Shown here: positions 1,593 to 62,307 of the stretch, one piece after another
Position numbering within the stretch: position 1 is the stretch's first letter
How the letters are laid out: each line of letters starts with the position of its first letter
Source of the DNA: Planctomycetota bacterium
GTDB lineage: Bacteria > Planctomycetota > PLA2
Direction of reading: 5' to 3'
DNA length: 64,000 nucleotides
Assembly (NCBI GenBank): GCA_021776735.1
Contig: JAJFFH010000006.1
Coordinates: 1 to 64,000 of the forward strand
Position numbers and translations under genes: made by a program
The notes under the pieces: model-generated
What the model was told of the DNA's origin: nothing
The model's input: the letters and a program-made list of their open reading frames with translations, nothing else
Databases searched by the model: none

Positions 1593-3301
1593 GCTTCGCC
1601 CTTTTTATCCAATTCGCTCGTGGATTGCTCCAGTTCCTGCCAGCGGGCGTACAGGGTCTCGACGGTCGCGGCCAGGTTGGCGCGCCGGGTCACGAGGTCG
1701 CGGACGCTTTTCTTGTGGCTCTGGGCGAGCTCATGGTCGAGGGCGGCGAGTTCCCGCTCGTGCTTGGCGATCTGGTCCGGGAGCCCGTCCAGCTCCTGTC
1801 GCTCGCGATAGCTGAGCTTTTTGGCGCGGCTTCGCGAAGATCGCCGTCCGTCTGCTTTTTTCTTTTTGGGCTTCTTCTCCCGGGGGAGGGCGTCGAGGAG
1901 CTCCGACACGCTGCCGGGATGCTGGATCACGTGGCCCTCGCCGTCCAGAAACAGGATGCGATCCGCGACGCGGTCCAGAAACCAGCGGTCGTGGCTGACC
2001 ACCACGGTTGTGCCGGGAAACGCGAGTAGCGCCTCCTCGAGCGCGCGCAGGGTTTCGAGGTCGAGGTCGTTCGTCGGTTCGTCGAGGGCGAGGACGTTGC
2101 CGCCCTGCAGCAAGAGCCGCGCGAGCAGAATGCGGTTGCGCTCGCCGCCGCTCAGTTGGCCGACCGGGACCGGGAACATCTCTTTCGCGAACAAGAACCG
2201 CGCGAGGAACGCTTCGATCCGCACGGGCTTGCCGGCGAGATGGACCCACTCGCTGCCACCCGCGACGGCCTCCAGGACCGTGTCGCGTGGGTTGAGCTGC
2301 TCGCGCGCCTGATCCACATACGCGACCTGGACGCGGTTGCCGAGCGCGACACGGCCCGCGTCGGGCTCCAGCAGGCCGAGACAGATCTTGAGCAGTGTCG
2401 TTTTGCCCGCGCCGTTCTTGCCGACGATGCCGACGCACTCGCGACGGCCGATTTCGAGGTCGAGGTTTTCGAACAGGACGCGGTCGCCGTAGCGCTTGCT
2501 CACGCCCTCGATCTCCACGACCTTTTTGCCGAGCGGCGGGCCGGACGGAATCTGCAGCGCCACGCTTCCGGGCCGGTCCTCGCGGCGTCCGCCTTCGAGC
2601 GTCTCGTAGCGCGTGATCCGCGCCTTCGCCTTCGTCGCGCGTCCCTGGGGTCCGCGCTGCATCCACTCGCGCTCGCGGCGCAACAGGTTCACGCGCGACG
2701 TTTCCGCCTTGCGCTCGGTGTTCATCCGCTGCGCGCGCTTCTCCAGGAACTCGGTGTAGCCGCCGTCGTAGTTGTAGAGTTTGCCGCGGTCGAGCTCGAT
2801 GATGCGGTTGGCGACGCGGTCGAGGAAGTACCGGTCGTGCGTGACCATGATGATCGTGCGCCGCGCGAGTTCGCGTTCGAGCCAGGTGATGACGATGGCG
2901 TCGAGGTGGTTCGTCGGCTCGTCGAGCAAGAGCAGGTCTGCGTCCTGGGCCAGGACATGTGCCAGCGCCACGCGCCGTTTCTCGCCGCCGGAGTGGCCGC
3001 CGCGCGCGTCGAGCTTGCTGCGAAAAACCTGCTCCTGGTGGCTCGGCTCGTCCGGCGGCGCCTCCGGCTCCTGCTCCAGATGCGCGACCCGCACGTGCTT
3101 GCGCCCCAAGACATCGCCGTCCGTATGCTCCATCGTGCCCGCAATCACCCGCAAAAGGGTGCTCTTGCCGGCCCCGTTGCGGCCGACGACGGCAATCCGG
3201 TCGCCCGCCTGCACGGTAAGGGACACCCCGCAGAGGATGTCTTTGTCCGCGACGGACAACGCGATGTCTTTCAGGGTCAGGAGCGCCACGCGCGATATCA
3301 T
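1589..3301 (-). CDS. uup: ABC-F family ATPase, Uup-like
   Basis: Soluble ATPase with two ABC domains and no membrane part, the hallmark of ABC-F proteins that act on the ribosome or, for Uup, on replication and repair intermediates. Walker A motifs are GRNGAGKST (about residue 39) and GKNGAGKTT in the second half. Signatures are HSGGEKRR and LSGGERNR, and the Walker B parts read LLLLDEPTNHLD and VLALDEPTNDLD. The linker carries RRGPQGRATKAKARI, a typical Uup stretch. The C terminus (from about residue 480) is basic then coiled-coil, also Uup-like. 570 residues is slightly short for the family. An in-frame GTG at 3289 would give an N terminus closer to family members. The start lies only six bases from the divergent start at 3308. 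Confidence 0.88.
   Translation of the reverse strand: MISRVALLTLKDIALSVADKDILCGVSLTVQAGDRIAVVGRNGAGKSTLLRVIAGTMEHTDGDVLGRKHVRVAHLEQEPEAPPDEPSHQEQVFRSKLDARGGHSGGEKRRVALAHVLAQDADLLLLDEPTNHLDAIVITWLERELARRTIIMVTHDRYFLDRVANRIIELDRGKLYNYDGGYTEFLEKRAQRMNTERKAETSRVNLLRREREWMQRGPQGRATKAKARITRYETLEGGRREDRPGSVALQIPSGPPLGKKVVEIEGVSKRYGDRVLFENLDLEIGRRECVGIVGKNGAGKTTLLKICLGLLEPDAGRVALGNRVQVAYVDQAREQLNPRDTVLEAVAGGSEWVHLAGKPVRIEAFLARFLFAKEMFPVPVGQLSGGERNRILLARLLLQGGNVLALDEPTNDLDLETLRALEEALLAFPGTTVVVSHDRWFLDRVADRILFLDGEGHVIQHPGSVSELLDALPREKKPKKKKADGRRSSRSRAKKLSYRERQELDGLPDQIAKHERELAALDHELAQSHKKSVRDLVTRRANLAATVETLYARWQELEQSTSELDKKGEA
1838..1851 (-). repeat. interspersed motif copy 1
   Basis: Core GGACGGCGAT is exact, inside the ABC-F C-terminal coding region. 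In motif orientation it is preceded by six A's and GC, a flank shared with the copies at 38237 and 44993. Confidence 0.8.
3111..3124 (-). repeat. interspersed motif copy 2
   Basis: Perfect 14-mer within the ABC-F gene. It forms an exact 16-bp inverted repeat (3110-3125) with copy 3 (3379-3394) across the divergent start region. Confidence 0.85.
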
Positions 3302-3307
3302 CCACGC

Positions 3308-4609
3308 ATGCGCTACCTACTCGCCCTGGGCCTTGTGTTTGCCGCTGTTCCTGTTCGTGCCGATCCGGATGGGAAGCGTACGGACGGCGATGTCCTGTAC
3401 ATCGGGCTGAACGGGCAGGGGGCCGAGGAGTGGTACCGCGTGAAGGACGGCGCGACGGTTGTGCGTGTGCCGGGCGGGACGTATCTGCGGCGGCCGTACG
3501 AGGGTGGGACGGCCTCGCGCAAGGCGCAGCCGTTCGACGTCGCGTCGTTTTTTATCGACAAGTACGAGGTGACCAACGCGCAGTTCGCGCGGTTCCTGGA
3601 CACCGTGAAGGATTCGGCGGGGCTTGTTGATGTGTCGGTGCCCGGGCTCGAGCGGACGGCGGCGGGTTGGCGCGCCGCGCGCGGGCGCGAACGTTACCCC
3701 GTGACCGCGGCGACCGGCCACGGTGCGCTCGCGTTTGCCAAGTGGGCCGGCGGCGGGATTCCGACGCCCGCGCAGTGGGAGAAGGCGGCGGGCGGACCGA
3801 AGGGGCAAACGTATCCGTGGGGGTCGGCGGCGCCAGACAAGACGCGGGCGAACTTCGCCGTGCACGGCAAGCTCGGGGGGGCGCACGCGGTGGGATCGCA
3901 CCCGGCCGGGGTGTCGCCGTACGGCGTGCACGACATGGCGGGCAACGTGTACGACCGCGCGATGATGCGCGGCGTGCCGGTCATGGTGAAGGGCGGTTCG
4001 TGGCTGTCGCCGCATCCGCTCAACCTGCGCGTGTCCGACATGTGCGTGCAGCCGATGGCGGTCGCCGAAAAGAGCGTCGGCTTTCGCTGCGTGATGGCCG
4101 ACCCGGAGCCGGACAGAAAGACCAGGAAGGCGCGCGCGAAACAGCCGGGGCTCAAATTGGTGCGCAGCTGGGACGCCGCGGTGAAGCAGGCCCGCGAGCG
4201 CCGGGTGCCGATCTTTTTGTCGCTCCAATTCGACACCTGCGGCCAGTGCGACCGCACGCGCGCACAGCTCTTTCGCGACCCGCGCTTTGTCGCGTACTGC
4301 AACAAGCACGTCGTCGTGGTCATCGGCCACAAGGCGGCCCCGCAGGTCGGCGTCGAAGACCACGAAGAAAACGACGACGGCAGTTGCCCGCTCTATCCGG
4401 GCCTCGATTGCGTCGATCACCACGAGGTTTTTCCGCAAGGTCTCAACGTCGTGAAGCGCTTCTCGGTCTCGCCCGGCAACTTTGTCCTCCATCCGGACAC
4501 GAAAGCCATCCTGGTCGGCGAACGCACGCTCCCGAAGTGGGGCCTGGACGTCGCGAAGTATCTGGCCGCGTTCGAAAAGGCGCGAGCAGCAGTCAAGACA
4601 AGGAAGTAG
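3308..4609 (+). CDS. exported SUMF1/formylglycine-enzyme-type protein with C-terminal thioredoxin-like domain
   Basis: This protein of 433 residues begins with a signal peptide (MRYLLALGLVFAAVPVRA). Residues about 50-265 match the FGE-sulfatase (SUMF1) fold: VPGGTYLRRP, FFIDKYEVTNAQF, YPVTAATGHGALAFAKWAGGGIPTPAQWEKAA, YPWG, HDMAGNVYD, VKGGSW and VGFRCV. In this family the fold either makes formylglycine on sulfatases or serves as a binding scaffold. Residues about 280-380 look like a thioredoxin fold with CGQC near residue 311. A single chain with both parts suggests redox-linked protein modification in the periplasm, but that is inference. The ATG at 3308 is needed for the signal peptide and lies six bases from the divergent ABC-F start. 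Confidence 0.8.
   Translation: MRYLLALGLVFAAVPVRADPDGKRTDGDVLYIGLNGQGAEEWYRVKDGATVVRVPGGTYLRRPYEGGTASRKAQPFDVASFFIDKYEVTNAQFARFLDTVKDSAGLVDVSVPGLERTAAGWRAARGRERYPVTAATGHGALAFAKWAGGGIPTPAQWEKAAGGPKGQTYPWGSAAPDKTRANFAVHGKLGGAHAVGSHPAGVSPYGVHDMAGNVYDRAMMRGVPVMVKGGSWLSPHPLNLRVSDMCVQPMAVAEKSVGFRCVMADPEPDRKTRKARAKQPGLKLVRSWDAAVKQARERRVPIFLSLQFDTCGQCDRTRAQLFRDPRFVAYCNKHVVVVIGHKAAPQVGVEDHEENDDGSCPLYPGLDCVDHHEVFPQGLNVVKRFSVSPGNFVLHPDTKAILVGERTLPKWGLDVAKYLAAFEKARAAVKTRK
3380..3393 (+). repeat. interspersed motif copy 3
   Basis: Perfect 14-mer preceded by GAAGCGT. It encodes RTDGDV just after the signal peptide of the SUMF1-type protein. Confidence 0.85.
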
Positions 4610-4645
4610 TGGTCGGGGCGTTTGCGGAGAGTCCGACGATCCGAT

Positions 4646-4878
4646 TCTTCACCACGAAGTGCACGAAGGTCACGAAGAATGAGTCCGATGAGCAGACCGA
4701 TCTGATTGGGTGGCGGCAGCGAATCCGAACTCACTTCATACCTTCGTGTTCTTCGTGCCCTTCGTGGTAATTCTCGTTCTTCGTGGTTCTGAACGCGTAC
4801 GTTCGGCTCGAGTTCGTGTGGCTACTGGCACCTTGAGGCCTGAGTTTTCACCACGAAGTACACGAAGGGCACGAAGGC
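4646..4878. repeat. CACGAAG array, inverted, between convergent genes
   Basis: Three blocks of the heptamer-like unit CACGAAG(n) lie here: forward at 4651-4676, reverse-complement at 4741-4767 (with a further reverse unit to about 4788), and forward at 4851-4877. The reverse block and the last forward block can pair over about 27 bases with few mismatches, giving a long hairpin between two convergent genes. Arrays of this type are common between genes in planctomycetes and other environmental bacteria. A bidirectional terminator role is inference. Confidence 0.7.
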
Positions 4879-4891
4879 ATGAGGAGGATGA

Positions 4892-7800
4892 TCAGATGTC
4901 AGGCATCGCTCGCTCGCGGGCCGCACGCAGGTCCAGTTTGCCGGTGCCCAGCAGGGGGATTTCTTCGACCTTGATGAAGGCGTCTTCTCGGGGGAGATAG
5001 AGATTGGGCAGGCCGGCTTCGGCCATTGCGGTGAGGAGTTCCGGGATGTTCGCATCGGTGATGGTGTGCAGCACCGCCAGCCGTTCGCCCTTGCGCGCGT
5101 CGGGGATGCCTACGACGACAAAGCGGCGCTGCGGCGACGGGTCGTCCTTGGCATGCGCTTCGTGCAGGGCGTCTTCGACCGCGCCGTGCGAGACCATTTC
5201 GCCGCCGATCTTGGAGAAACGGCTCAAGCGGTCCGTGATCTTGATGTAGCCGTTTTCGTCCACGAGGGCGATGTCGCCCGTGATGTACCAGCCGTCGCGA
5301 AACGCCGCTGCGGTCAGGTCGGGGCGGTCGAGATAGCCGTGCATGACGTTGGGACCGCGCACCAGCAGGAGGCCCGGGGTGTTCGGCGGAAGTTCGTCGC
5401 CGGTGTCCGGATCGATGACGCGGACGGTCACGCCCGGCAGCGGCGGTCCCACGAATCCGCGCCGCGAACCGGGTTGATAGACGCCGGGCGCGCGATGGGG
5501 CGGGATGCTGGCGGCGATGACGGGAGCGCACTCGGTCGCGCCGTAACCTTCCAGCGGGCGAATACCGAACTGCTCCTCGAAGGCCTCGCACAGGGCGCCG
5601 GGCAGCTTCTCCGCGCCCGCGAGCACAAGCCGCAGCGAACCGAACCGATCCGGCGGGATGCGGCGCAGGTAGAGCTGCAAGAACGTCGGCGTGGCGAGCA
5701 GCCACGTGAGCCGGTGCTTTTCGACCAGGCGGCCGATCGCGGGTGCATCGACGGGGTTTACGTGAAACACGATCGGCATGCCGCGCACCAGCGCGAACCA
5801 GAGCGACAGCGTGCCGAACGAGTGAAACAGCGGCAGGATGCCGAGCAGCCGGTCGTCCGGCTCGGGACGAAAGACCTGCGCGACGGCTTCGATGTTGCTG
5901 TCGAGATTGAAGTGGGTGAGCGGCACGCCCTTGGGCTCGCCCGTGCTCCCGCTGCTGAACACGATTGTCGCGACCGAGTCGGGCCCGGCTGTCCGGCGCG
6001 CCCCGCAATAGCGTTCCAGCAACCGCTTGGGCGCAAACAGCGCGACCAGCGCGGCGCCGAGTTTCTGCCGCCAGGAAAACGAGAGATCTTCGAGGAACAT
6101 CGCCGTCCCGCCTTCGCGCTCCGCGCTTCGGCGCGGGCAGGCCCGTTTGCTGTCCAGCTCGAGGTTCGCTCCTTCCAGAAACCTGCGGCTGGTGAGGATC
6201 GTTTCGAGTCCGGCCTGACGTGCGGCGGAATCCATGGCGGCGCGTCCCGCGATGTAGTTGAGGTTGACGCTCTCGTTGCCGCACAGTGCCGCGGCGAGGT
6301 TGGCGGCGGCGCCCGCGACGGACGGCGGGAGGAGGATGCCGCGCGGGCGCACGCGTCGCGCAAGCAGAATCGCCATCACGAGCAGGCCGAGTCGAGAACA
6401 GGTCGTGGTGGCGTCGGCGGCGGCGAGGCGCCACGGCGCACGGCGGACGCGCTTGACAAACGAGCGGTGCAGCGACGGGCGGGTGCTCTTGCGCGCGAGC
6501 CAGGCTTCTTGGCCGAGTTCTTCGATGCGTCGGCGGAGTTCCGCGACGGGAGTGTTGGGGGGGGCGGGGGCGCCGAACGAGACGGTGATCGGGTACGGGA
6601 TCGACTCCGGAAGCTTGCGCAGGAAGCGGCCGCGCGAGAACGAGAACAGCGAACCCCAGACGCGGTCGAGGTGGACGGGGACGATGACCGCGCGGCGGCC
6701 CTTCGCGATGCGTTCGAGTCCGCGCCGGAACGGATTGGTCTGGCCCGTGCGCGTGATTTGCCCTTCCGGGAAGACGCAGACGACTTCGCCCGCGTCGAGG
6801 TGTTCACCGGCGTCGCGCAGCGCGCGCAGGATTTCCTTCGTGCCGCCGGTGCTCGAGACCGGGATCGCGCCGACCATGCGCGCGAGAGGCCGGATCCACC
6901 ACCGGCGATACTGTTCCTCCTCGATGAGAAAGCGGATCGGCCGGTCAATTGCGGCCATCAGGAACAGGCCATCCACGAACGACATATGGTTGGGCGCGAG
7001 CAGCACGCCGCCCGTTTCGGGCACGTTGACGCGGCCGCGCACATTGAGGCGGTAGATCGTGTGCGTGTACAGGAACACGCACAGGCGCAAGAACGCTTCG
7101 GGAAGAAGCGTGAGCGCCCAGACGGTGCCGAGGAGCGTGGCGAGGCCGGCGCCGACAAAGATCGCGCGCGACGAGTAGTCGAACAGCGCCATGCCGCCGC
7201 CCGCGAGGGCGCCAAGCAGTGTTCCGGTGAAGACGAAGACGTTCGACAGCGCGATGACCGACCCGCGTCGGTCCGCGGGTGCCTTCCACTGGATCAGCGC
7301 GTCGAGCGGCACGACTAAAAAACCGCTGGCGACGCCCGCGAGTCCGAGCAGGATGAGGGTGAACGCGAGGCCGGGCGCGAACGCGCCGAGAGCGAGCACC
7401 GAACCGGCAAGCCCGAGTGCGCCGAGCGGAATAAGCCCGACCTCGACCTTGCCCGCGGACAGGCGTCCGGCGATGAGGCTGCCGAGTCCGACGCCGACGC
7501 CGTACACGCCGAGCGGCGCGCCTGCCCACCGTTCGCCGAGGCGCAGCACCTGTTCGGAATAGACGAGAAGGTTTTGGCCGAGCAGGCTCGCGATCGCCCA
7601 GAAGAACGTCGAGCCGAGGACGGCGAGCCACAGCGTCCGGTCGGCGCGCAGCGTGCGCCATGCGGCGCGCACGGTCGCGACTACCGGCTGCGGCGCGGCG
7701 GCGGGCGGCGTTTCTTCAATGCGCCGCGCGAACCCGAGACCGATCAGCGCCAGCAGCGCGAGCACGGCGGCGGCGGGTGCCGGACCGACTGCGGTCAGCA

Positions 7801-8284: not shown

Positions 8285-8350
8285 AAAAAGAGGCTACCGC
8301 CAAAAAAATCGACCGCCCACTCACTTCCCCGAATCGACACAATAGGCCAC
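8285..8350. promoter_or_regulatory. divergent intergenic region
   Basis: These 66 bases separate the start of the LplT-Aas fusion (minus) from the first TPR paralogue (plus), so promoters for both should lie here or overlap the starts. The segment includes a run of six A's. No confident -35/-10 pair was identified. Confidence 0.4.
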
Positions 8351-10189
8351 ATGAATCGAAGAGGAGGCAGCAAACGGACGGCGATGTTTCTGGCGGCACT
8401 CGTGGCCGGAGCGATGCTGGTTTCCCGCCTGCAAGCGGACGAGAACGTCGCGGCCGTCGAGAAGGAGGTGCGCGCGTTTCTCAAAGAGGCGGAGAAGGGC
8501 GAACTTGCCGATGTGCTCGATCTTGATGCGATCGCGCGCACGATCGAGAAGCTGGCCGGTCGGGATGTCGCTCCCTACGCGGTGGTCCGTGCGGCGCTCG
8601 AACAAAAGCTCGCGCGAGCCGAGGTGCTTCTTGTTCTCAAGGGGCTGAAGACACGACGCGTCGAGGTGATGGGTACCGACGATGCCATCGTGATCGCTGA
8701 CGTCCGCGTTCCTTTCTTGGACGCGTGGGTGCGCCAGCGACTTGCCGTGCACAAGACTCCGCGCGGCTGGCGCATACAGGACTTCGGAGAACTCGCCCTT
8801 GGCCTCAGCCTTGTCGAGTTCATGGAAACAGCCCTTCACGCCGTGGCCAGGGGCGAGAACGGAGTCTTAGCCACACTCGCGGTGATCAAGGAGCTGATTC
8901 ACGGATTCGATCAGCTCGATGCGGAAGAAGCATCGGTTCGGCTCAAGTCCGTTGCCCACCACGCGCTGCCGCGCCGGCTCGATGCGATTCGGCACGGCTT
9001 TACTTCGTTGGTTCAGGTCGGCGCTGACGAACTCGACGATGCACTGGCGAGCGCGGATCGTGCGCTCGCGCTCGTGCCGGATCTTCCGATTGCCCTTCAG
9101 GCAAAGGCCATGGCGCTGGTCGAGCTCGGTCGGGCCGGCGAAGCGTTGCCGATCCTGGCTCGGCACCGAAAGACGTTTGGCGACAGCGCGGATGCTCGCG
9201 AGACCGAAGTGAGCGCCCTGATCCAGCTCAAGCGCCACGCGGAGGCGAAGACCGTCTGCCTGGCCGGGCTGGCCGAGGAGACGCGTCCTTGGTTGGTTGC
9301 TCGGTATGCGAAGCTTCTGCCGACCGAGTCCAAGGCGCTCATTCTTCCGTACTTCGACAAGCTGGGACCGCCGGGGGATGCCTTGATCGAGTGCGGCGAG
9401 GAGTTCGGCGAGCTCGATGAATGGCAGGCCCTGGAACTCGTTTGTGCGCATGCCCGCAAGACGATTCCGGACCATCCGGATGTCGCCTACTACGACGCTC
9501 TCGCGAAGTGGGCCACCGGGCGTGCGACGGAGGCGGCAAAACTGGTCTATCCCGCGATCGAACGTGCCCCGGCGGACGAACGCGACGCGTTCGTGGAGCT
9601 GTACCTCGACGTCATGCACGAGCTCGAAAAGGGGCTCTCCGGCTACCGGCGGCTCGCGGACCGGGATCGCGGATTCGGGTTCGCGTGTTTGGCCCGGACC
9701 CTGTACGACGACGACAAGTACGACGATCTCAAGAAACTCGTGAATAGGCGCCGCGGAGAGACCAAGGATCTTGACCTTGTCCTGATCTGGGAAGCCGAAA
9801 TCCTCTGGCGCAACGACAAGAATGCGGAGCTGATTCCCTTCCTGCGAAGACACGCCGCTGCGATGGCGCGAGTCGAGGGGGAGGAGAGCTGGATGCCCAA
9901 CGACCGGCTTGTCCGCGCCCTGATCAGATTGAAGAAGCTGGACGAGGCTGTGCGGGAGGCGAAGCGCATCGCCGCGGCGGGTGACGAAGCGTACTACCTC
10001 GTCATGGCGTACGCCGCGTCCGGCCGTACAGCGGAGGCCATCCACGCATTCCGTCGTGCCGTAGCAGCCCACCAGCCGGACGACCTGTACACGGACGAGG
10101 ACATGGGCCCGCTCCTCCGCAAGCCGGCATACAAGGAGCTGCACAAGAAGTACCCGCCCCCGTCGATCAAGGACGACGAGAAGAAGTAA
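8351..10189 (+). CDS. exported TPR-like protein, paralogue 1
   Basis: This protein of 612 residues starts with a basic segment and a hydrophobic helix (about residues 12-29), probably a signal peptide ending near LQADE. Residues about 30-165 form a mixed alpha/beta domain of unknown type. From about 210 onward helix-turn-helix repeats of TPR character follow (for example ALASADRALALVPDLPIALQ then AKAMALVELGRAGEALPIL). The C-terminal signature reads GPLLRKPAYKELHKKYPPP and recurs in both following genes. Function is unknown. It is the first of three tandem copies, five bases from the next. The N-terminal KRTAMF is encoded by the interspersed motif. Confidence 0.8.
   Translation: MNRRGGSKRTAMFLAALVAGAMLVSRLQADENVAAVEKEVRAFLKEAEKGELADVLDLDAIARTIEKLAGRDVAPYAVVRAALEQKLARAEVLLVLKGLKTRRVEVMGTDDAIVIADVRVPFLDAWVRQRLAVHKTPRGWRIQDFGELALGLSLVEFMETALHAVARGENGVLATLAVIKELIHGFDQLDAEEASVRLKSVAHHALPRRLDAIRHGFTSLVQVGADELDDALASADRALALVPDLPIALQAKAMALVELGRAGEALPILARHRKTFGDSADARETEVSALIQLKRHAEAKTVCLAGLAEETRPWLVARYAKLLPTESKALILPYFDKLGPPGDALIECGEEFGELDEWQALELVCAHARKTIPDHPDVAYYDALAKWATGRATEAAKLVYPAIERAPADERDAFVELYLDVMHELEKGLSGYRRLADRDRGFGFACLARTLYDDDKYDDLKKLVNRRRGETKDLDLVLIWEAEILWRNDKNAELIPFLRRHAAAMARVEGEESWMPNDRLVRALIRLKKLDEAVREAKRIAAAGDEAYYLVMAYAASGRTAEAIHAFRRAVAAHQPDDLYTDEDMGPLLRKPAYKELHKKYPPPSIKDDEKK
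8374..8387 (+). repeat. interspersed motif copy 5
   Basis: Perfect core with the full flanks CAGCAA and TTC, at codons 9-13 of TPR paralogue 1. The motif ATG (8384) is in frame and could itself serve as a start. Confidence 0.85.
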
Positions 10190-10194
10190 TTGCC

Positions 10195-12054: not shown

Positions 12055-12093
12055 CCCTGCGCGACAAGGACAAGGTCTGACACAATAGGAATC

Positions 12094-13964: not shown

Positions 13965-15302
13965 ATGTCGGGCATGCGTACCGGGCTCTTTCTGCTTGCT
14001 CTTTGCTCGTTCCTGATCGCCGAAGAGGCGGACCTCAAAAAGACCATCGATTCGTTTTGTGAGCCGCTTGTTGCGAGCGGGCGCGTGGTCGGCATGAGCA
14101 TCGCCGTCCGTTCCGGTGGCAAGGTCTACTTTCGCGGCTACGGACGCTTCACGAAGGACTCGAAGCGTGTGCCGGACCAAGACAGCATCTACGAGATCGG
14201 ATCGATCTCGAAGGTGTTTACCGGCGTGCTGCTCGCCTCGCTCGTGCACGAGGGAAAGCTCAAGGTCGATGATCCGATCACGGCGCACCTGCCGGGTCCG
14301 GCGCCGAAAAGGATTACGCTGCGCCATCTCTCGACGCACCGCTCCGGCTTGCCACGTCTGCCCAGCAACATCAAGCCGGACAATCCGAACCAGCCGTACA
14401 GCGGTTACGACGCGGAGCCCCTCTACGCGTTCCTAAAGGGCGTGAAGGTGGCGTCGTCGCCGGCGCCGTATGCCTACAGCAATCTCGGGGCGGGACTGCT
14501 CGGGCACATCGTCGCGCGCAAGGCGGGCATGAGCTACGAGGATCTGATGATCGCGCGCATCGCCAAGCCGTTGAAGATGACCTCGACGGCGCTCACGCTC
14601 ACCGACGAACAAAAAAAACGTCTCGTGCCCGGTCATCTAGCGGGGGGCGTGAAGGTGCCGAGCTGGCCTTGGAAAGACTCGGCGCTTGCCGGCGCCGGTG
14701 CGATTCGTTCCACGACGCGCGACATGATGAAGTTCGCCGAGGCGCAGTTCGGCAACGATCCGGTCCAGGCGCTCGCGCGCAAGGTCCATACGACGAACCC
14801 GCCGAAAATGGGGCTGGGGTGGCACTACGGGCAGTTCGACGCGATCTGGCACAACGGCCAGACGGGCGGCTACAAGTCCTATCTCGCGATCGATCTCAAA
14901 GACAAGATGGTCGTTGTCGTCTTGGCCAACACCACGGCAGCTGAAGTCGATCAGCTCGCGAACATGCTGTTCTTGCGGCTCAAGGGGCAACCGATCAAGC
15001 CGCTGGAACTCAAGCCCGAGCGCAAGGTCGCAGCGGCGATCTTGAAGCGTTACGTGGGCACATACGCGATTGTTCCGCAGTTCAAGGCGACCGTGCGCGT
15101 CGAGAACGGCGGGCTGGTCGTGCAGTGGACGAACCAGCCGAGCCTGCCGGTGTTTTCGGACTCCGACACCGAGTTTCGCTACCGCGCGGTGAAGGCCCGG
15201 ATCGAGTTCCATGTCGGCGCCGACGGCAAGACGACAGGGCTGACGCTGCATCAAAACGGGCGCGCGATGAAGGCCCCCAAGGAAGCCGCGCCCAGTGATT
15301 GA
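13965..15302 (+). CDS. exported serine hydrolase, class C beta-lactamase fold
   Basis: This 445-residue protein carries the beta-lactamase/DD-peptidase/EstB fold. After a short signal peptide it shows the nucleophile motif SISK (in YEIGSISKVFTGVLLA, about residue 80), the Tyr motif YSN (PYAYSNLGAG) and the third motif as HNGQTGG (HxG type). Members act as esterases, D-amino acid peptidases or beta-lactamases, and the substrate cannot be told from sequence. A second in-frame ATG at 13974 is an equally good start. The stop overlaps the GTG of the next gene by eight bases, so the two are likely coupled. Confidence 0.85.
   Translation: MSGMRTGLFLLALCSFLIAEEADLKKTIDSFCEPLVASGRVVGMSIAVRSGGKVYFRGYGRFTKDSKRVPDQDSIYEIGSISKVFTGVLLASLVHEGKLKVDDPITAHLPGPAPKRITLRHLSTHRSGLPRLPSNIKPDNPNQPYSGYDAEPLYAFLKGVKVASSPAPYAYSNLGAGLLGHIVARKAGMSYEDLMIARIAKPLKMTSTALTLTDEQKKRLVPGHLAGGVKVPSWPWKDSALAGAGAIRSTTRDMMKFAEAQFGNDPVQALARKVHTTNPPKMGLGWHYGQFDAIWHNGQTGGYKSYLAIDLKDKMVVVVLANTTAAEVDQLANMLFLRLKGQPIKPLELKPERKVAAAILKRYVGTYAIVPQFKATVRVENGGLVVQWTNQPSLPVFSDSDTEFRYRAVKARIEFHVGADGKTTGLTLHQNGRAMKAPKEAAPSD
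14098..14111 (-). repeat. interspersed motif copy 7
   Basis: Exact core within the serine hydrolase gene, read on the plus strand as SIAVRS. Confidence 0.8.
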
Positions 15303-16029
15303 TCACGAAACCCACGGAGACATCGCCGTCCTTCGGCTGTCCCATGGCAAGGTCAGTGCGCTGGATACGGAACTGTGCCACGCATTGACCGTGGCGCTCG
15401 ACGACGTCCGGGATGCCGCCGCCCTCGTGCTCACCGGCACAGGTTCGACGTTTTCCGCGGGCGTCGATCTGTTCCGGGTCGTACGCGGCGGCACGGCGTA
15501 CGTCGCATCGTTCTTCCCCGCCCTCGTGCGCTGCTTTCGCGCGTTGTTCGAGTTCCCGCGCCCCGCGATCGGCGCCGCGAACGGCCACGCCGTCGCCGGC
15601 GGCTCGGTCCTGATCAACGCGTGCGACCGGCGACTCGGCACCACGGGCCGCCACGGCATCCCCGAACTCGTCGTCGGCGTCGCGTTCCCGTGCGTCGCCC
15701 TCGAAATCATGCGCTGCGCGGTGCCGCACGGCGCGTTCCAGGAACTCGTCCTGACCGGGACGATCGTCGATGCGGCGCAAGCCGAGCAACGCGGTCTCCT
15801 CGATGCGGTCGTCGATTCCGACACATTGCTCGAACACGCCCTGGCCGAGGCGGCGCCCCTCGCCGCGCAACCGCGCGCGGCCTTCGAGCGCGTCAAGCGC
15901 GACCTGCGTGCACCCTTTCAACGCACGATCGATGAGGCCGATGACGGCGAAGTACTCGCCATCTGGTCAAGCGAGGAAACCCACGCCGCAATCAGCGCGT
16001 ACCTGGACCGCACGGTCCCCAAGAAGTGA
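15295..16029 (+). CDS. enoyl-CoA hydratase/isomerase family protein
   Basis: This 244-residue protein has the crotonase fold: TGTGSTFSAGVDLFRV supplies the first oxyanion-hole segment and AANGHAVAGGSVLINACDRRL the second. IPELVVGVAFPCVALEIMR and VLTGTIVDAAQAEQRGLLDAVV are typical of later family motifs. It would act on acyl-CoA thioesters in the cytoplasm. The usual catalytic Glu positions are not obvious, so the exact reaction is open. The GTG start at 15295 overlaps the end of the hydrolase gene. The partner itself is exported, so coupling here says little about a shared pathway. Confidence 0.8.
   Translation: MIDHETHGDIAVLRLSHGKVSALDTELCHALTVALDDVRDAAALVLTGTGSTFSAGVDLFRVVRGGTAYVASFFPALVRCFRALFEFPRPAIGAANGHAVAGGSVLINACDRRLGTTGRHGIPELVVGVAFPCVALEIMRCAVPHGAFQELVLTGTIVDAAQAEQRGLLDAVVDSDTLLEHALAEAAPLAAQPRAAFERVKRDLRAPFQRTIDEADDGEVLAIWSSEETHAAISAYLDRTVPKK
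15320..15333 (-). repeat. interspersed motif copy 8
   Basis: Exact core at codons 9-13 of the enoyl-CoA hydratase-like gene, read as DIAVLR. Confidence 0.8.
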
Positions 16030-16194: not shown

Positions 16195-19100
16195 TCAGTG
16201 CACTTGGTTCCACGCGGTCATGATGGCCTGGTGCAGCGGGACGTTGCGGACCATCGACTCTCGATCGCTTTTTGGGGCGTGCTCGCGCAGGAACTCGAGC
16301 AGGCGGTGTGCTTCGCGGAGATGTACATCGCCGTCCGTTCGTTGCCACATCCGGTAGCGCGCCTCCATCTCCACTTCGTGATCGATGTGGCCCTGGTGCT
16401 TCTCGAGAACAGCGGCGGCGGCGGCGGCGTGCGTTTTTCCGCCGGGCAGCCGTGCGCGTTCTGTGGTGGCGAACACCGTGACGTTGGGGGCATCGAGTTC
16501 GTGGGCGAGCGCCAGTGCTTCGTCGAGGTGGCTTGTCGCATTGTCAGGGTTTCCGCCGGTGGCCTCGATTTGGCCCAGGACGACGAGTGCGATCGCCAGG
16601 TTGTGCTTGGCTCCCAGCTCGCGCTGGATCGCGACGCTCTGGGCGATGGCCTCGCGCGCCCGATCCGGACGCCCATCGATCTTGGCGAGCTGGGCGATGC
16701 GGGCCAGGACCTCGCCCTCCTGGCGCCGACTTCCGATGTTGCGGGCGCCTGCCAGGCACTCGTCAAGCTGAGTGCGCGCGTCTTCCAGACGGCCGAGGCG
16801 CACGAGGTCGGTGGCCAGCTTGCCGATGGCTCTGGATTCTGCTTTCTTGTCCCCGATCTCGCGCGTGAGGGCCCTGGTTTTCTGGAAGTAGCCGCGCGCC
16901 TCTTCGAGACGTCCGGCGTCCGAGAGAATCGAGCCGAGGTTTCCCGTCGCGTAGGCCGCGGCGCGCCGGTTTCCGATCTCGCGGGCCAGCGCGAGTGTTT
17001 GCTCGTACTGCGCGCGCGCCTCCGCGAGTCGTCCCGTGTTTTGGAAGACGATGCCCAGGTTGCCGGTGGCGTTGAGTTCACTGAATCGATCGCCGGTCTC
17101 GCGCGCCAGCGCAAGAGCGTTCTCGAAGTGCTCCCGTGCCTCCTTGCCGCGCCCCAGATTCCACGCCACGAGGCCTACGCTGATGGTCGCCTCGGTCTCC
17201 CACTTCTTGTCGCCACGCTCGCGTGCCATGGCAAGGCTCGCCCTGAACTGCGTCTGGGCCTCGTCGTAGCGGCCGAGATTGCGAAGCACGTGCGCCACGT
17301 TGTCCGCGGCTTTTCCCCGGAGCCTGACGTCGTCCGCGTCATGCGCGAGTGCGAGCGCTTCTTCATGCCACTTCAGCGCGGCAGTCAGATCCGACGTGGC
17401 TCGAGCGTGCATGCCGAGCGCGATCCGGACTCTGGCGCGCACCCCCGACTCCCCGCACTCGTCCGCCAGATGCCGCGCCTCATCCAGGGCGGCCCGCACG
17501 GTCTCGTGCTCGCCGCGCACGCGATGCAGCCGAGCCTTTCGGAGCAAGACATCCGCGCGCGCCGTGCTCTGCAGCAGGTCGGGCGTTTCGAGCGCCCGCG
17601 TCGATAGCTCGAACGCTTCCTCGTAGCGCGACGTCCGTTCGAGCGTGTCCAGCGCCGGGTCGAGATGGTCCCCGGCGTCGCGCGGCTCATTCCCGCGCAG
17701 GTAGTGTGACGCGAGGAACACCGCGTCTTCGCTCCCGCTTGCAGCGTCGCCGCGCGCGGCGTAGGCGTCGGCGATCAGCGTGTGGTACTCGGCGCGAAGA
17801 TCCGGCGGAAGATCCTGATAGAGGACCTCCTGAATCTGGTTCTGGTCGAATCGCGTGCTGCCTGCCTCGCCGTGGACGAGGCCGCGGCTGCGTTCGATCT
17901 CGGCAAGATGCTGGAGGATCCGAACCCGCTTTTGTTCCAGCACGGCGACGATGAGGGCGGGGTCGAACACCATTCCGATCACGGCGCCGACGTCCAGAAT
18001 CCTGCGCTGTTCATCCGGCAGTCCGCGCAGCCGGCCGTCAATCAGGTCACGGACCGCGGACGGCACGTCGATCTCTTCGATGAGTCCGGTCTGGACGTAT
18101 CTGCCGTCGGGTTCGCGCCGGAGAAACTTGTCCTCGGCCAGCCCCCGGATCATTTCGAACACGAAGAGAGGCACGCCGTCCGACTTCCTGGCGATCTTTG
18201 CGCCCAGCGTCTCGGCGAGCGTCTCGTTCTTGAAGGCGTCTTCGAGAAGCTCGAACACTTCGCGCGCGCCGAGACGATCCGCGAGGACTCGCTGGAAGTG
18301 GTGCAGTTGGCTGAACTCTTCGAGCCGCATGCCGGGTCGGGCCGTAAACAGGAGCAGGACGGACTCGCTCTCCGCGGCGCGCGCGAGTGCAAGAGCGAGA
18401 TCGCGGCTCTCCGCGGACGCGTGGTTCAGGTCCTCGACAATCCAGATCAGCGGCTCTTGTTCCGCCAACGCGCGCATGAGCTGCACGCAGGTGGCGGCGA
18501 GTGCGTCCCGCGGCAGCGGGTCGGCTCCGGTGGGCGGCCCCTCGTGCTTGAGGAGGGACGCGAACGCCGTCACAAGGGAGGGGGCGAGGGACAAGTGAGG
18601 CGCGAGCCGGCGGGCCAGATCCCGTTCGCCGAACTTCCCCACGATCGCGTCCGAGAGTGCGCCGAATCCACCCGACGGGGCGTAGGAGCCGTACAGCACG
18701 TTTCCGCTTGCGCCGTCCACTTCGCGCAGGAACGCATCGACGAGCCTTGTCTTGCCGATCCCGGGCTCGCCTTCGACAAGGATGGCGTTCCCCTCGCCGG
18801 CCTGTGCACGATCCCATGCGGCACGCAGCGCGCGCAGCTCCTTGGCGCGACCGTGGAGTCGAGTCTCCCGTCTCACGCGTATTTGTGGGACGTACGCCCT
18901 GGTCTCGTGTTCCTGCGACGCCTGCTCCGTCCACCACCGCGACGGTTCGCCCTGTTCGAGCACCGCGCGCAGCGCGTCGGCCGACTCGAACCGGTCCCCG
19001 GGGTTTTTCTCGAGCAGGCATGCGACCAGCGCCGAGAAAAAGGGCGTGGTGTCGCCGATGTCGGCAAGGCGCGGTGGAACAAACTCCGCATGCGCCCGGA

Positions 19101-24795: not shown

Positions 24796-24841
24796 GAGAT
24801 TGCAACCCGGCGATTCGCTGCAGGTTCCTTACCATACGGCC

Positions 24842-39003: not shown

Positions 39004-40587
<1,584 letters not shown>

Positions 40588-40707
40588 CTTGGACAGTTCC
40601 TTCCGTGACCGGACGCCCCAGCGAATTATGCGCCGAGTCAGGGCAAAAACCCATGAAACGATAGATCGGTTGGAGGGCGTCGCTGTCTGAAGTCGGACGG
40701 GAAGCTG

Positions 40708-40721
40708 ACGGACGGCGATTT
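40708..40721 (+). repeat. interspersed motif copy 19
   Basis: Exact core with GAAGCTG flank, intergenic, 50 bases before the TIR gene. With copy 20 in opposite orientation it brackets the TIR/SLOG pair. Confidence 0.8.
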
Positions 40722-40770
40722 CCGGGGGCGCGTTCCCGACGCCGCGCGCCCGGATAGACTTGGCAGTCTC

Positions 40771-46542: not shown

Positions 46543-46556
46543 ACGGACGGCGATGC
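46543..46556 (+). repeat. interspersed motif copy 22
   Basis: Intergenic, 24 bases after the propeller stop, with the full CAGCAA flank and AGCATCGCCGTCCGT complementarity to copy 21. Confidence 0.85.
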
Positions 46557-47555: not shown

Positions 47556-47569
47556 ACGGACGGCGATGT
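47556..47569 (+). repeat. interspersed motif copy 23
   Basis: Perfect 14-mer, intergenic, 77 bases upstream of the MoxR-type start. Confidence 0.85.
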
Positions 47570-47645
47570 CCCCGGAACCCTGCGCTTCGGCGCGGGCACG
47601 CCCGTGTGCTGCCGCTCGATTTTGGCCCGCCCCTACCATGTCGCG

Positions 47646-48513: not shown

Positions 48514-48527
48514 ACGGACGGCGATGC
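48514..48527 (+). repeat. interspersed motif copy 24, carries a start codon
   Basis: Perfect core; the ATG of the motif (48524) is the start codon of the CoxE-like gene. Confidence 0.85.
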
Positions 48528-49699
48528 TCTCGGATTTGTTTTATCGGCTGCGCGGCGGGGGCGTTCCGGTTTCGCTCAAGGAGTACCTCGGGCTACTCGA
48601 GGCGCTGGACAAAGGCGCGGCAGGGCTGAGCGTCGAACGGTTCTACTACCTCACGCGCGCGTGTCTCGTGAAGACCGAGCGCCATCTCGATCGGTTCGAC
48701 CGCGTGTTCTCGAACTGGATCGAGGGGCTCGCCGCCGTCGAGGATCCGTTTCGTGCGATTCCCGAGGAGTGGCTGAAGAAGATGGGCGAGCGCTACCTCT
48801 CCGACGAGGAGAAGGCGCGCATCAAGGCGATGGGCGGCTGGAAGGAGCTGCTGGAAACGCTCAAGAAGCGCCTGGAAGAGCAAAAGGAGCGGCATCAGGG
48901 TGGCGGCAAGTGGATGGGCACCGGCGGGACGTCGCCGTTCGGCGCGTACGGCTACAACCCGATGGGGATTCGTGCGGGACAAGACGGCTCGCGTCACCGC
49001 CGCGCCGTCAAGGTCTGGGACCGCCGCGAGTTCTCGGACTTCGACGACACGATGGAGCTCGGCACGCGCAACATGAAGCTCGCGTTGCGCAAGCTGCGAC
49101 GCCTCACGCGCGAGGGCCACGAAGACGAGCTCGACCTCGACGGGACCGTTCGCGCGACCGCGCGCAACGCGGGGTTCGTCGATATCAAGATGCAGCCGTC
49201 GCGCGAGAACACGATCAAGCTGCTGCTGTTTCTCGATGTCGGCGGCTCGATGGATGACCACGTCCTGCGTGTCGAGCAGCTTTTTTCCGCGGCACGCGCC
49301 GAGTTCAAGCACCTGGAGCAGTTCTATTTTCACAACTGTCCGTACGAGAGCGTGTGGCGCAACAACCGCCGCCGCTTCGAGGAGACCGTTTCGATGCGCG
49401 AGGTGCTGCGCACCTACGGTTCGGACTACCGCCTCGTGATCGTCGGCGACGCCAGCATGAGCCCGTTCGAGATCACCGAGCCCGGCGGCTCCGTGGAGCA
49501 CTGGAACGAAGAGCCCGGCTACGTGTGGCTGGGCCGCCTGCTCGAAACGTGGGAGCGCGCGGTCTGGATCAACCCGGTTCCGCAAAAGCACTGGCACTGG
49601 ACCCCGAGCATCGACATGCTCCGCCAGCTCGTGGGCAATCGCATGGTCCCGCTGACGATGGACGGCCTGGACATCGCCGTCCGTACGCTTCGCGCCTGA
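48524..49699 (+). CDS. CoxE-like VWA domain protein
   Basis: 391-residue protein. The helical N terminus (LFYRLRGGGVPVSLKEYLGLLEAL) and the Gly-rich middle lead to a VWA fold with FLDVGGSMDDH near residue 236; this is the DxGxS form of the MIDAS metal site common in this CoxE-like group. It forms a unit with the MoxR-type ATPase upstream. In carbon monoxide dehydrogenase systems such pairs help build the metal centre, but no cox structural genes lie here, so the client is unknown. The start ATG lies inside an interspersed motif and the last codons (DIAVRTLRA) contain another in opposite orientation. Confidence 0.88.
   Translation: MLSDLFYRLRGGGVPVSLKEYLGLLEALDKGAAGLSVERFYYLTRACLVKTERHLDRFDRVFSNWIEGLAAVEDPFRAIPEEWLKKMGERYLSDEEKARIKAMGGWKELLETLKKRLEEQKERHQGGGKWMGTGGTSPFGAYGYNPMGIRAGQDGSRHRRAVKVWDRREFSDFDDTMELGTRNMKLALRKLRRLTREGHEDELDLDGTVRATARNAGFVDIKMQPSRENTIKLLLFLDVGGSMDDHVLRVEQLFSAARAEFKHLEQFYFHNCPYESVWRNNRRRFEETVSMREVLRTYGSDYRLVIVGDASMSPFEITEPGGSVEHWNEEPGYVWLGRLLETWERAVWINPVPQKHWHWTPSIDMLRQLVGNRMVPLTMDGLDIAVRTLRA
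49671..49684 (-). repeat. interspersed motif copy 25
   Basis: Perfect 14-mer within the last 30 bases of the CoxE-like gene, with flank GTACGCTTC that mirrors the GAAGCGTAC of copy 3. Confidence 0.85.
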
Positions 49700-50976: not shown

Positions 50977-50988
50977 TGGCCGTATCGC

Positions 50989-51975: not shown

Positions 51976-52271
51976 GCACCCGGCATCGCGGGGTGTCCGC
52001 GCGCCCCCCCCGCCTTGCGAGAAACATCGCCGTCCGTGTGCTCCCGTCGTGATTGCCCCGACCTCCACAACGCTCCGCGCCAGCCCCCGCGACCGACCCC
52101 CCCCCGGTCTCACCAGATCCTTCTGGCGACCCATACCCCGCATATGGTTGTGATTTTCTTCGTTACAAGACCATCCGTACGCGGCTTGCCCCGGCCCCAA
52201 GAGCGGCCGGTGGTTCGCCAGCGAGTGCGTTCGATCCACCCGACGCGTCCGACCGGGGGTACGATCCCAAC
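51976..52271. other. intergenic, C-rich, one motif copy
   Basis: The stretch has several runs of eight to nine C's (near 52006 and 52090) and motif copy 26. An open frame continues upstream from the C25-like gene to 52053 but shows no signal peptide there, so it is treated as non-coding. Confidence 0.5.
52024..52037 (-). repeat. interspersed motif copy 26
   Basis: Perfect 14-mer, intergenic, with GAGAA on one side and GTGCTC on the other, 49 bases after the stop of prepilin-like paralogue 3. Confidence 0.85.
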
Positions 52272-56992: not shown

Positions 56993-57061
56993 CCGCGTCC
57001 GGTCCTGGATTCTGTACTTGTTTGACTTCGCACCGGGTACCACGGGGTTGTTCTTGTAGCC

Positions 57062-59659: not shown

Positions 59660-59661
59660 CG

Positions 59662-60654
59662 CTAGCGTTTTCCGAAGTCGACGTCGGTGCCTTCCTCGTT
59701 GCGGTCCGTGGCCGGTGCGGGCGCCGGCGACAGCGCCGAGATGCGGTCGCGCAGCTCCGGGGTCATGTCGATCTCGGCGGCGGCGAGTGCCGGCTCGAGT
59801 TGTTTCACGTTGCGGGCGCCGAGCAGCGGCGCGGTCACTGCCGGGTGTCCGGCGACCCAGGCGATGGCGAGCGAGACCGGATGGTGTCCGAGTTCGCCGG
59901 CCAGGGCCGCGAACCGCTCCGCGACTTCGTAGTTTTGCGTCGCGCCGTAGCGCACCTTGTACATCGGGTTGTCCACGAGCCGTCCGGACTTCGGGGACAT
60001 CGCCGTCCCGTACTTTCCCGACAAGAATCCGCCCGCGAGCGGGCTGTAGGGGAATACCGCGAGGTTTTCCGTGCGAGCCAGCGGCAGGATCTCGCTCTCC
60101 GCCTGCCGCTTGAGCAGGTTGTACATGGGCTGCAGCGCGCAGAGCCGCGTCCAGCCGTGCGCCTCCGCGACGCCGAGCGCGCGCGCCGCCTGCCACGCCG
60201 CGAAGTTGCTTGCCGCGGGGTACAGCACCTTGCCCTGTTGCACGAGCCGCTCGACCGCGCGCAGCGTTTCCTGAAGCGGCGTGGCGTCGTCGAACCGGTG
60301 CAGAAAAAACACGTCGATGCGATCGGTGCGCAGCCGCCGCAGGCTGCCCTCGACCGCGCGCACCAGGTGGTACGCGCTCGTGCCGCGATCGTTGACGCCG
60401 TCGCCGGTCGGGAAATACGCCTTGGTCGTGAGCACGACGTCGTCGCGGCAATCCGCGATGAGCCCGCCCAGAATCTCCTCGGACCGGCCCCGGTTGTAGA
60501 CGTCCGCGCAGTCGAACAGGTTGATCCCGGCGTCCCGGCAACGCCCAAACAGCGCGGCACTTGTGGCCTCGTCGGCATTGCCACCAAACGGCATCGTGCC
60601 AAATCCGAGCCGCGAGACGCGCACGCCGGTCCCGCCCATGAACACATGTTCCAT
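59662..60654 (-). CDS. aldo/keto reductase
   Basis: 330-residue protein. TIM-barrel aldo/keto reductase with the tetrad visible: Asp and Tyr in FDCADVYNRGRSEEILG, Lys in VVLTTKAYFP, His in DVFFLHRFDD. AIAWVAGHPAVTAPLLGARNVKQLEPAL is the NADP-binding end. It reduces aldehydes or ketones with NADPH, and the natural substrate is unknown. It is convergent with the sigma factor gene with two bases between the stops. Confidence 0.9.
   Translation of the reverse strand: MEHVFMGGTGVRVSRLGFGTMPFGGNADEATSAALFGRCRDAGINLFDCADVYNRGRSEEILGGLIADCRDDVVLTTKAYFPTGDGVNDRGTSAYHLVRAVEGSLRRLRTDRIDVFFLHRFDDATPLQETLRAVERLVQQGKVLYPAASNFAAWQAARALGVAEAHGWTRLCALQPMYNLLKRQAESEILPLARTENLAVFPYSPLAGGFLSGKYGTAMSPKSGRLVDNPMYKVRYGATQNYEVAERFAALAGELGHHPVSLAIAWVAGHPAVTAPLLGARNVKQLEPALAAAEIDMTPELRDRISALSPAPAPATDRNEEGTDVDFGKR
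59997..60010 (-). repeat. interspersed motif copy 28
   Basis: Exact core in the aldo/keto reductase gene, with one extra C before GTAC of the flank. Confidence 0.75.
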
Positions 60655-60696
60655 GCCCGTAGGCTAACCTCTGATGGGATGCGTTTAGACAACTGC

Positions 60697-62235
60697 ATGA
60701 AGCGCAAAAAAGGCAAACGGACGGCGATGCTTCTTGCCCTGGCGGCGCTGATGGCGCCCGTGCACGCGGGCGACGACCGGCCCGCAGACCGCGGGGTCAA
60801 GGACCGGGCGCTCCAAGAGCAGATTCACGAAGCGATCGATCGCGGCGTCGCGTACCTGAAAAGCGTCCAGAAACCGAACGGCGCGTGGAGCCATCCCGGC
60901 CCCGCAGACGCGGCGGTTTCGTACAACAGCGGACTGACCGCGCTCGCGCTCTACGCGCTTTCCGCATCCGGGGTTCCCAAGGACGATCCCGCGATCCGGA
61001 AAGGTGTGGCCTGGGTCTTGTCCCATCGTGGTGCGTTTGCAGGCGATGGTCCGACGGCGACGTACTCCGCGTCGCTGCTTGTGCTGGCGCTGACACGCAT
61101 CGACGTCGATGTCTATCGGCGCGTCATCATCGAGTACGCCGACGCGCTGGCTGCCGGTGAACTCGGCGGTGGCATGTGGACCTACACCTACACCGGTTCG
61201 ATCACGACGGCGCGCGACCGGGCCGCGGGCCGCCCCGCCCTACGCCGATCGCCCCCTGACAACTCGAACACGCAGTTCGCGGTCCTTGCGCTGTGGGCGG
61301 CGCACTCTCTGGCCGGACACGACGTACCTGAGCGGACGTGGCGGCATGTGCACCGCCATTTCTTGAAAAAACAGCGCGACGGCGGCTGGCTGTATCGCCA
61401 GAGCGGCCGACCGACCGCCACCATGACGGCCGCGGGCATCGTGTCACTCATCTACGCGCACGCGGCACTCCACCCGGGCAAGGACGGCATCGCGCAGGCG
61501 CGACGGCTCCCCGAGGTGCGGCGCGCGCTCAAGACTTTGGGGCTCCACCGCGTCCGAGGCCGCGCGACAATGCGCGGGAGTTTCCTCGATTTCTATTGGA
61601 TGTATTCGCTCGAGCGCGTGGGCACGGTGGCGCGTCCCGGTGACCGGACCTGGTACGAGAGGGGCGCGCGCCGGCTTGTCGAGAATCAACACGAGGGTGG
61701 CTCGTGGCCGAAGCAGAGAAAGCTGATTCCCAAGGCGGTGGGCTTCGGGATCCTGCCGCCCGCCAAGAGCACGAAGTGGGAACCGGTTTACGAGACGTCG
61801 CTCGCGCTGCTCTTCTTGTCGCGGGCGACGTTTCCGCCCGTGCGCGGCGCGACGACGGAGAGCGGCGGCGAAGAGCAGGAGCGCTCGGCGACGACGACAA
61901 AAAAAGAAGCGTGGCCCGACGTGACAACCGCCGCCGGCTTGTCGCGCGCGTTCGGGCGCTATCACGAGGCGAAGCCCGCGGAGCGGCAAAAGATCGTGCC
62001 GCGCCTCGGTGCCGGCGGCGCGCGCGTGGTGCCATATGTCGTGCGCCGGCTCAAGGACCGCCGCCCGGCCGTTCGCGCGAGCGCGTTCGAGTTGCTGGGC
62101 CGGCTCGTGGCGAAGCGCTTCTTGTTCGATCCGCGGGCGTCCGCCGAAGAGCGCGCGATGATGCTGGCGCCGATCGAGAGCTACGCGATGACCGCAAAAC
62201 TGAGCTGGAACCTCAAGACGAGCCGGTTCGAGTAG
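60697..62235 (+). CDS. exported squalene-cyclase/prenyltransferase-fold repeat protein
   Basis: 512-residue protein with a signal peptide (AMLLALAALMAPVHAGDD). Alpha-alpha toroid repeats follow: AIDRGVAYLKSVQKPNGAWSHPG, VRKGVAWVLS-type helices, KKQRDGGWLYRQSG and RLVENQHEGGSWPKQ. These GGW/GSW repeats are typical of terpene cyclase-fold proteins widespread in planctomycetes. No DXDD cyclase motif is evident, so a non-enzymatic role is likely. The C terminus has a short HEAT-like end. ATG 60697 gives a basic start like that of the TPR paralogues; ATG 60679 and the motif ATG 60727 are alternatives. Confidence 0.75.
   Translation: MKRKKGKRTAMLLALAALMAPVHAGDDRPADRGVKDRALQEQIHEAIDRGVAYLKSVQKPNGAWSHPGPADAAVSYNSGLTALALYALSASGVPKDDPAIRKGVAWVLSHRGAFAGDGPTATYSASLLVLALTRIDVDVYRRVIIEYADALAAGELGGGMWTYTYTGSITTARDRAAGRPALRRSPPDNSNTQFAVLALWAAHSLAGHDVPERTWRHVHRHFLKKQRDGGWLYRQSGRPTATMTAAGIVSLIYAHAALHPGKDGIAQARRLPEVRRALKTLGLHRVRGRATMRGSFLDFYWMYSLERVGTVARPGDRTWYERGARRLVENQHEGGSWPKQRKLIPKAVGFGILPPAKSTKWEPVYETSLALLFLSRATFPPVRGATTESGGEEQERSATTTKKEAWPDVTTAAGLSRAFGRYHEAKPAERQKIVPRLGAGGARVVPYVVRRLKDRRPAVRASAFELLGRLVAKRFLFDPRASAEERAMMLAPIESYAMTAKLSWNLKTSRFE
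60717..60730 (+). repeat. interspersed motif copy 29
   Basis: Exact core with GGCAA flank at the start of the toroid protein, encoding KRTAM just as in TPR paralogue 1. Confidence 0.85.
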
Positions 62236-62238
62236 CAG

Positions 62239-62252
62239 ACATCGCCGTCCGT
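62239..62252 (-). repeat. interspersed motif copy 30
   Basis: Perfect 14-mer, left arm of the hairpin after the toroid gene. Confidence 0.85.
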
Positions 62253-62293
62253 TCCTGACGCCCGGGTGTCTGGCCTGACGGGGACAGCAGCGT

Positions 62294-62307
62294 ACGGACG
62301 GCGATGT
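62294..62307 (+). repeat. interspersed motif copy 31
   Basis: Perfect 14-mer, right arm of the hairpin, with flank CAGCAGCGT. Confidence 0.85.

Follow-up and report, generated by a model that had tools for sequence, protein, structure and literature searches.

The first 64,000 nucleotides of contig JAJFFH010000006.1 from a Planctomycetota bacterium (GenBank assembly GCA_021776735.1), hereafter called the window, are interspersed with a short, non-palindromic motif with the 10-mer GGACGGCGAT as its core. Sequence comparisons indicate that this motif probably serves as a tag for self-DNA similar to the DNA uptake sequence (DUS) of Neisseria, with elements of the form AGC-NN-AC-GGACGGCGAT-G-YYYY or AGCC-AA-GGACGGCGAT-G-YYYY.

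Within the window, which sits in contig C46 of the 71-contig draft assembly (5.97 Mb), the core occurs 26 times (10 copies on the forward and 16 on the reverse strand), while a third-order Markov model predicts 0.69 occurrences. The recount agrees with an earlier note on this DNA, which had reported 26 exact copies, estimated well under one by chance and proposed an uptake sequence. Its total of 31 copies (14 plus, 17 minus) is the count of the 9-mer GACGGCGAT and does not describe the exact 10-mer. When up to one mismatch was allowed, 42 sites were found against 13.5 expected, a number that none of the shuffled sequences reached. A restriction of the copies to the window, which the earlier note had regarded as fatal to its interpretation, was not observed: the whole genome contains 2,022 copies (1,003 forward, 1,019 reverse), or on average about one per 3 kb, versus 6 matches for the reversed pattern used as control. 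The 13-mer ACGGACGGCGATG was found 1,202 times (589 and 613 by strand), with no match for its control. This confirms that the over-representation is genuine and genome-wide.

The flanks were analyzed in 352 distinct copies from ~1.07 Mb; like the placement and alignment statistics below, these numbers describe the 0.8–1.07 Mb of the genome that were sampled by region. Around the invariant 10-mer, conservation fades over ~23 bp, and two forms of the element could be distinguished. In the major form, AC precedes the core (262 of 352 copies, 159 of them with the full AGCNNAC), while in the minor form the core is preceded by AA (39 of 352, 24 of them exactly AGCCAA) and the AGC box sits one base nearer to it. 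Downstream of the core, both forms continue with a G and then a pyrimidine run. The single extended form AGC-N2-3-ACGGACGGCGATGTTTC given in the earlier note was wrong and is replaced by these two. That the spacing covaries with the base at position -1 suggests that recognition of the element is structured.

Perfect copies of the element clearly outnumber imperfect ones. In 819 kb, 190 exact cores were flanked by A[AC]..G, while all 30 single-base variants together amounted to 32 sites (4.7–13 expected). For the bare 10-mer, 316 sites with one mismatch were counted, most of which represent background (217, scaled from the same-family genome G013). Redfield 2006 (PMC1626085) described perfect cores exceeding singly mismatched ones as a puzzling mark common to DUS and the uptake signal sequence (USS) of Pasteurellaceae; the motif carries the same mark.

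With regard to placement, 17 of the 26 copies in the window lie inside predicted coding sequences (CDS), and the 271 copies in the 819-kb sample divide into 176 within CDS, 91 outside and 4 at edges, consistent with the two thirds estimated in the earlier note. The density is nevertheless 3.4-fold higher in noncoding than in coding DNA (0.84 versus 0.25 per kb, p 2.6e-18), as judged from a crude gene call based on GC3. Shuffling synonymous codons within genes left 23.7 copies compared to 186 observed in CDS (186 refers to all called open reading frames (ORFs), 176 only to those of 100 aa or more). The shuffled count was thus 8-fold lower than the observed one, whereas equal counts would, according to the earlier note, have refuted its interpretation. 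Its statement that copies occur in differing frames and orientations also holds: all six frames are occupied, with the readings DGD (73) and IAV (60) dominant. The spacing of copies is near random (coefficient of variation 0.98), and 14 of 15 pairs less than 150 bp apart are inverted (p 0.001). The idea that every inverted pair acts as a terminator was rejected, as the stems are strong, yet a clear T run was seen (by eye) in one pair only. Genes with more than 80% identity to their G013 counterparts contain 0.067 copies per kb versus ~0.25 per kb at 50–70% identity (split at 70%, p 0.024). The longest stretch almost devoid of the motif spans 36 kb, contains a single copy and comprises the ribosomal-protein, str and rpoBC operons, which were identified from protein sequences.

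The comparison with G013 also revealed how copies relate to the genes that contain them. Contigs C59 and C20 show synteny to contigs C4 and C27 of G013, and 201 reciprocal best hits were obtained with a median identity of 62%. Among 39 copies within shared genes, 22 showed no gap inside 5 residues; here, the motif replaced residues while the length remained unchanged (e.g., RLRTDGDAIRAG versus ALHAEEHAIREG in G013, and GRTDGDVFGSV versus ARLKGKTFATV in G013). Hence, motif copies alter the protein sequence in many genes. Gaps close to the motif were found at 17 of the 39 sites (44%) compared to 16% at random sites. As most of these gaps were protein-terminal or only 1–3 residues long, the copies appear to occupy variable places rather than being inserts. 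No motif-sized insertion relative to G013 was seen at any of the 39 sites which, together with the 22 gap-free replacements, argues against a mobile mini-repeat.

The assignment to Planctomycetota agrees with 16S probe sites: PLA886 is matched exactly in an order mate, and PLA46 or EUB338-II in further members of the phylum. The 16S of the source genome is partial and differs from PLA46 at two positions, so that its assignment relies on kinship with these genomes together with the probes. A search with an ABC-F protein yielded distant matches only. Searches for the motif beyond the source genome, the sole member of its genus among the genomes compared, returned few copies. Across 392 genomes of the phylum, an 11-mer of the motif occurred 1,628 times in the source genome, whereas four members of its family had 4–15 copies and no other genome exceeded 91, and the 13-mer ACGGACGGCGATG was present in 0–4 copies in each of 16 other genomes of the order. 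The long form AGCRWACGGACGGCGATGTTTC was absent from the GTDB collection of 84,980 species, which may omit the source genome. In the sister genomes G013, G042, G116 and G100, no other word reached a comparable density. No motif-rich virus was found in IMG/VR, where 32 contigs with a single copy of a 16-mer each look like noise.

The earlier note had suggested a search for competence genes, and these were indeed found. The genome encodes ComEC with a lactamase-type domain (C20:336697-337527), a ComEA-like helix-hairpin-helix protein (C48:94108-94281) whose PDB match is ComE operon protein 1, DprA (contig C62), PilM and 18 N-methyl pilins. PilB- and PilT-type ATPases are represented by family hits on C59 and C42, and we infer their assignment from size and neighbourhood. 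Minor-pilin clusters lie at C67:113-116 kb, C53:23-27 kb and C20:385-390 kb. Two minor-pilin candidates had no ComP match in PDB. As a separate observation, DprA was not found in G013 despite ComEC and ComEA-like matches, which may reflect an assembly gap or a lost transformation step.

The motif shares several properties with the Neisseriaceae DUS (ATGCCGTCTGAA and its dialects): ~2,000 copies, a non-palindromic core of 10–12 bp, no orientation bias, many copies in CDS, intergenic inverted pairs and lineage specificity. N. meningitidis carries about 1,900 DUS copies, and inverted DUS pairs have been reported (PMC3630211). The reverse complement of the motif, ATCGCCGTCCGT, happens to have GCCGTC in common with DUS. 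However, DUS dialects contain CTG, while the planctomycete word does not. The motif further differs in being another word, in its density (one copy per 3 kb versus one per 1.2 kb) and in belonging to a different phylum. Its core is accompanied by a conserved box upstream and by pyrimidines downstream, whereas Neisseria DUS is without flanking motifs (PMC1626085). Considering that the word differs and that neither of the two minor-pilin candidates matched ComP in PDB, the motif falls outside the neisserial class of DUS plus ComP.

Similar to the Pasteurellaceae USS (AAGTGCGGT), the motif combines a core with weaker flanks, more perfect than one-off copies and no strand bias (PMC1626085). In contrast, its sequence is unrelated, the phylum is different, and its box lies upstream at two spacings, where USS has two A/T-rich segments downstream. 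With GGACGGCGAT, a 5' AGC box and 3' pyrimidines, it does not belong to the USS class, which is defined by a AAGTGCGGT or ACAAGCGGT core and 3' A/T segments. Cyanobacterial HIP1 (GCGATCGC) is an 8-bp palindrome that is not known to have a link to competence. The motif resembles HIP1 as a short word with thousands of copies in coding DNA, but is asymmetric and has flanking boxes. The traits that it shares with uptake sequences as a class are copy number, orientation, perfect-core excess, intergenic enrichment with inverted pairs, origin by substitution and the presence of competence genes. Since the motif is neither DUS nor USS by sequence and no ComP relative was found, the comparison suggests a third, convergent DUS-like system that evolved independently of both.

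For such a tag, we infer recognition, biased uptake and recombination as follows. A surface receptor of the type IV pilus or competence system, probably a minor pilin, would bind the element on free double-stranded DNA, which the PilB/PilT pilus would then draw in. ComEA would retain the DNA and ComEC would pass one strand, to be recombined into the chromosome by DprA and RecA. As tagged DNA would enter more often, recombination would spread new perfect tags and overwrite broken ones, and thousands of near-identical copies could accumulate where protein function tolerates them.

Several findings weigh against an uptake sequence, chiefly the lack of a visible core-gene bias and the occurrence of the same pilins in motif-free genomes. 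One genome only carries the motif, while competence genes occur in nearly all motif-free relatives. Genes common with G013 contain 0.18 copies per kb versus 0.28 per kb in the others, and no core-genome bias is visible, although the set of other genes is small and depends on the crude gene call. A genome-specific pilin was rejected as the receptor, because all 18 pilins have orthologs in motif-free sister genomes, so that none of them stands out. Charge did not set a receptor apart either: the two minor pilins with a positive charge, which are also those lacking a ComP match, are charged to a similar extent in motif-less G013. The testable sequence-level predictions held, except that a core-genome bias was not visible with these gene sets, and the interpretation put forward in the earlier note is supported at the level of sequence.

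We also considered that the motif is the site of a chromosome-organising, nucleoid or other DNA-binding protein, directly selected at ~2,000 places. The sharp core, graded flanks and two spacings resemble a protein-recognition motif, and the density over contigs is fairly even (variance/mean 1.35 per 20 kb). We nevertheless regard this explanation as unlikely, given that sites of regulatory proteins, unlike the motif, follow a relaxed consensus (Redfield 2006, PMC1626085), that no strand rule was detected in the sampled 0.8 Mb, that relatives outside the genus are without the motif, and that protein changes in many genes would be costly if the site were structural. Insertion of a mobile mini-repeat (RUP, REP or Rickettsia-palindrome-like) ~2,000 times would agree with the inverted pairs, with the higher frequency of gaps near the motif (17 of 39 versus 16%), and with the excess of perfect over one-off copies, which also marks young mobile repeats (PMC1626085). 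It is very improbable, however, considering the mostly terminal or 1–3-residue gaps and the 22 of 39 gap-free replacements. Moreover, similarity ends at ~23 bp with flanks grading off, the flanks differ for nearly all copies, and the copies do not break up stretches that run uninterrupted in relatives.

The motif could also be recognised by a restriction-modification, BREX-like or other self-marking system, in which case methylation or repair would have enriched it in a HIP1-like manner. While its genome-wide abundance and sharp core would suit a self mark, a non-palindromic site with a fixed 10-bp core and an upstream box at two spacings makes this a highly doubtful proposition. Known methylase sites are, to our knowledge, shorter than the core plus upstream box, and methylase sites are usually not strongly enriched. 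Finally, a non-palindromic word over-represented genome-wide might be a Chi-type recombination hotspot or a KOPS-type sequence that orients FtsK. Such a role is already contradicted by strand usage and has a negligible probability: the strands are equal across the whole genome, and in the sampled 0.8 Mb the locally G-rich strand is not preferred (127 versus 144 copies, p 0.33), despite a clear GC skew of either sign in the sampled contigs. The strand bias that the earlier note had named as evidence for a KOPS/Chi-type site is therefore absent. The Chi and KOPS sequences that we know of are also shorter than the 10–16 bp of the motif.

Returning to the uptake-sequence interpretation, we lean towards the view that sequence-specific uptake had a third origin within Planctomycetota, with a receptor unrelated to ComP and one core with two box spacings, and that it arose in a single genus-level lineage. 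Uptake sequences are known from two proteobacterial families and are regarded as convergent (PMC5031613). If a third case existed in so distant a phylum, where close motif-free kin share nearly all competence genes, one could directly test how tags originate and spread by molecular drive, and motif-free sister genera would provide the comparison needed to trace how an uptake sequence comes into being. Natural transformation would then also have to be frequent in a planctomycete. No paper on DNA uptake sequences in Planctomycetes was returned by a full-text search of the open-licence literature.

Within the window, many coding copies are read as variants of a few peptides. DGD-containing readings occur at 3113..3122 (-) as HTDGDV in the ABC-F ATPase gene 1589-3301(-), which holds another copy at 1840..1849 (-), at 16327..16336 (-) as RTDGDV in 16195-19809(-), at 21893..21902 (+) as LTDGDV in 21792-22562(+), at 31154..31163 (-) as DGDA in 29720-31837(-), and at 39910..39919 (-) as DGDT in 39004-42435(-). 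The latter CDS contains a further copy at 40710..40719 (+), read IAVR. Related readings are SIAVR at 14100..14109 (-) in 13965-15302(+), DIAVL at 15322..15331 (-) in 15295-16029(+) with AGCCGAA before the core, and DIAVR at 26270..26279 (-) in the peptidase M3 gene 24794-26554(+). In 44986-46518(+), the copy at 44995..45004 (-) forms part of the N-terminus (NIAVL) and that at 46177..46186 (-) is read SIAVR. GTAMF is read at 6099..6108 (-) in 4892-8284(-), KRTAMFL at 8376..8385 (+) at the N-terminus of 8351-10189(+) from AGCAAAC-core-GTTTC, and GTAM at 59999..60008 (-) in 59662-60654(-). The remaining coding copies are at 23711..23720 (-) in 22736-23836(+), which is of the AA form (AGCCAA-core), and at 28476..28485 (+) in 27777-28817(-), read ASPSVR.

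Intergenic copies lie directly past 44986-46518 (46545..46554 (+), AGCAAAC-core), upstream of 47604-48494 (47558..47567 (+)), directly past 47604-48494 (48516..48525 (+), AGCGGAC-core) and at 52026..52035 (-) (AGCACAC-core-GTTTC). Two others are outside the main predicted CDS, at 3382..3391 (+) in the AC form and at 49673..49682 (-) as AGCGTAC-core. The copy at 60719..60728 (+) is either intergenic or part of a signal-peptide-like N-terminus (MKRKKGKRTAMLL). An inverted pair is formed by a left arm at 62241..62250 (-) and a right arm at 62296..62305 (+) (AGCGTAC-core-GTCTT); the arms are 55 bp apart, and the stem has a minimum free energy of -42 kcal/mol.

Some genes and words were recorded independently of the motif. 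In the 1,143-aa ORF 39004-42435(-), the C-terminal 526 residues represent an ATP-type phosphoenolpyruvate carboxykinase, while the first 615 residues are without an NCBIfam match, indicating a fusion or a wrong start. An extracytoplasmic function sigma factor at 57062-59659(+) is fused to an extended C-terminal region that includes a carboxypeptidase regulatory-like domain. The AAA ATPase at 47604-48494(+) resembles MadB, which belongs to a methylation-associated defence system, but falls far short of the family cut-off. A different word is over-represented in G013, namely an 18-bp imperfect palindrome (CAACATCTGACGATGTTG) with ~28 copies in 690 kb (loci L053-L057, L182-L192 and L203-L212). 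For an uptake word, its copies are too few and its sequence is too palindromic; it may be the site of a regulator or a REP-like repeat. Over 1.07 Mb of G000 (e.g., loci L033-L052), the C-rich word CCCCCGCCCCC was counted 74 times versus 1.1 expected, and G042 shows CCCCCGGAGCCCC in a similar manner.

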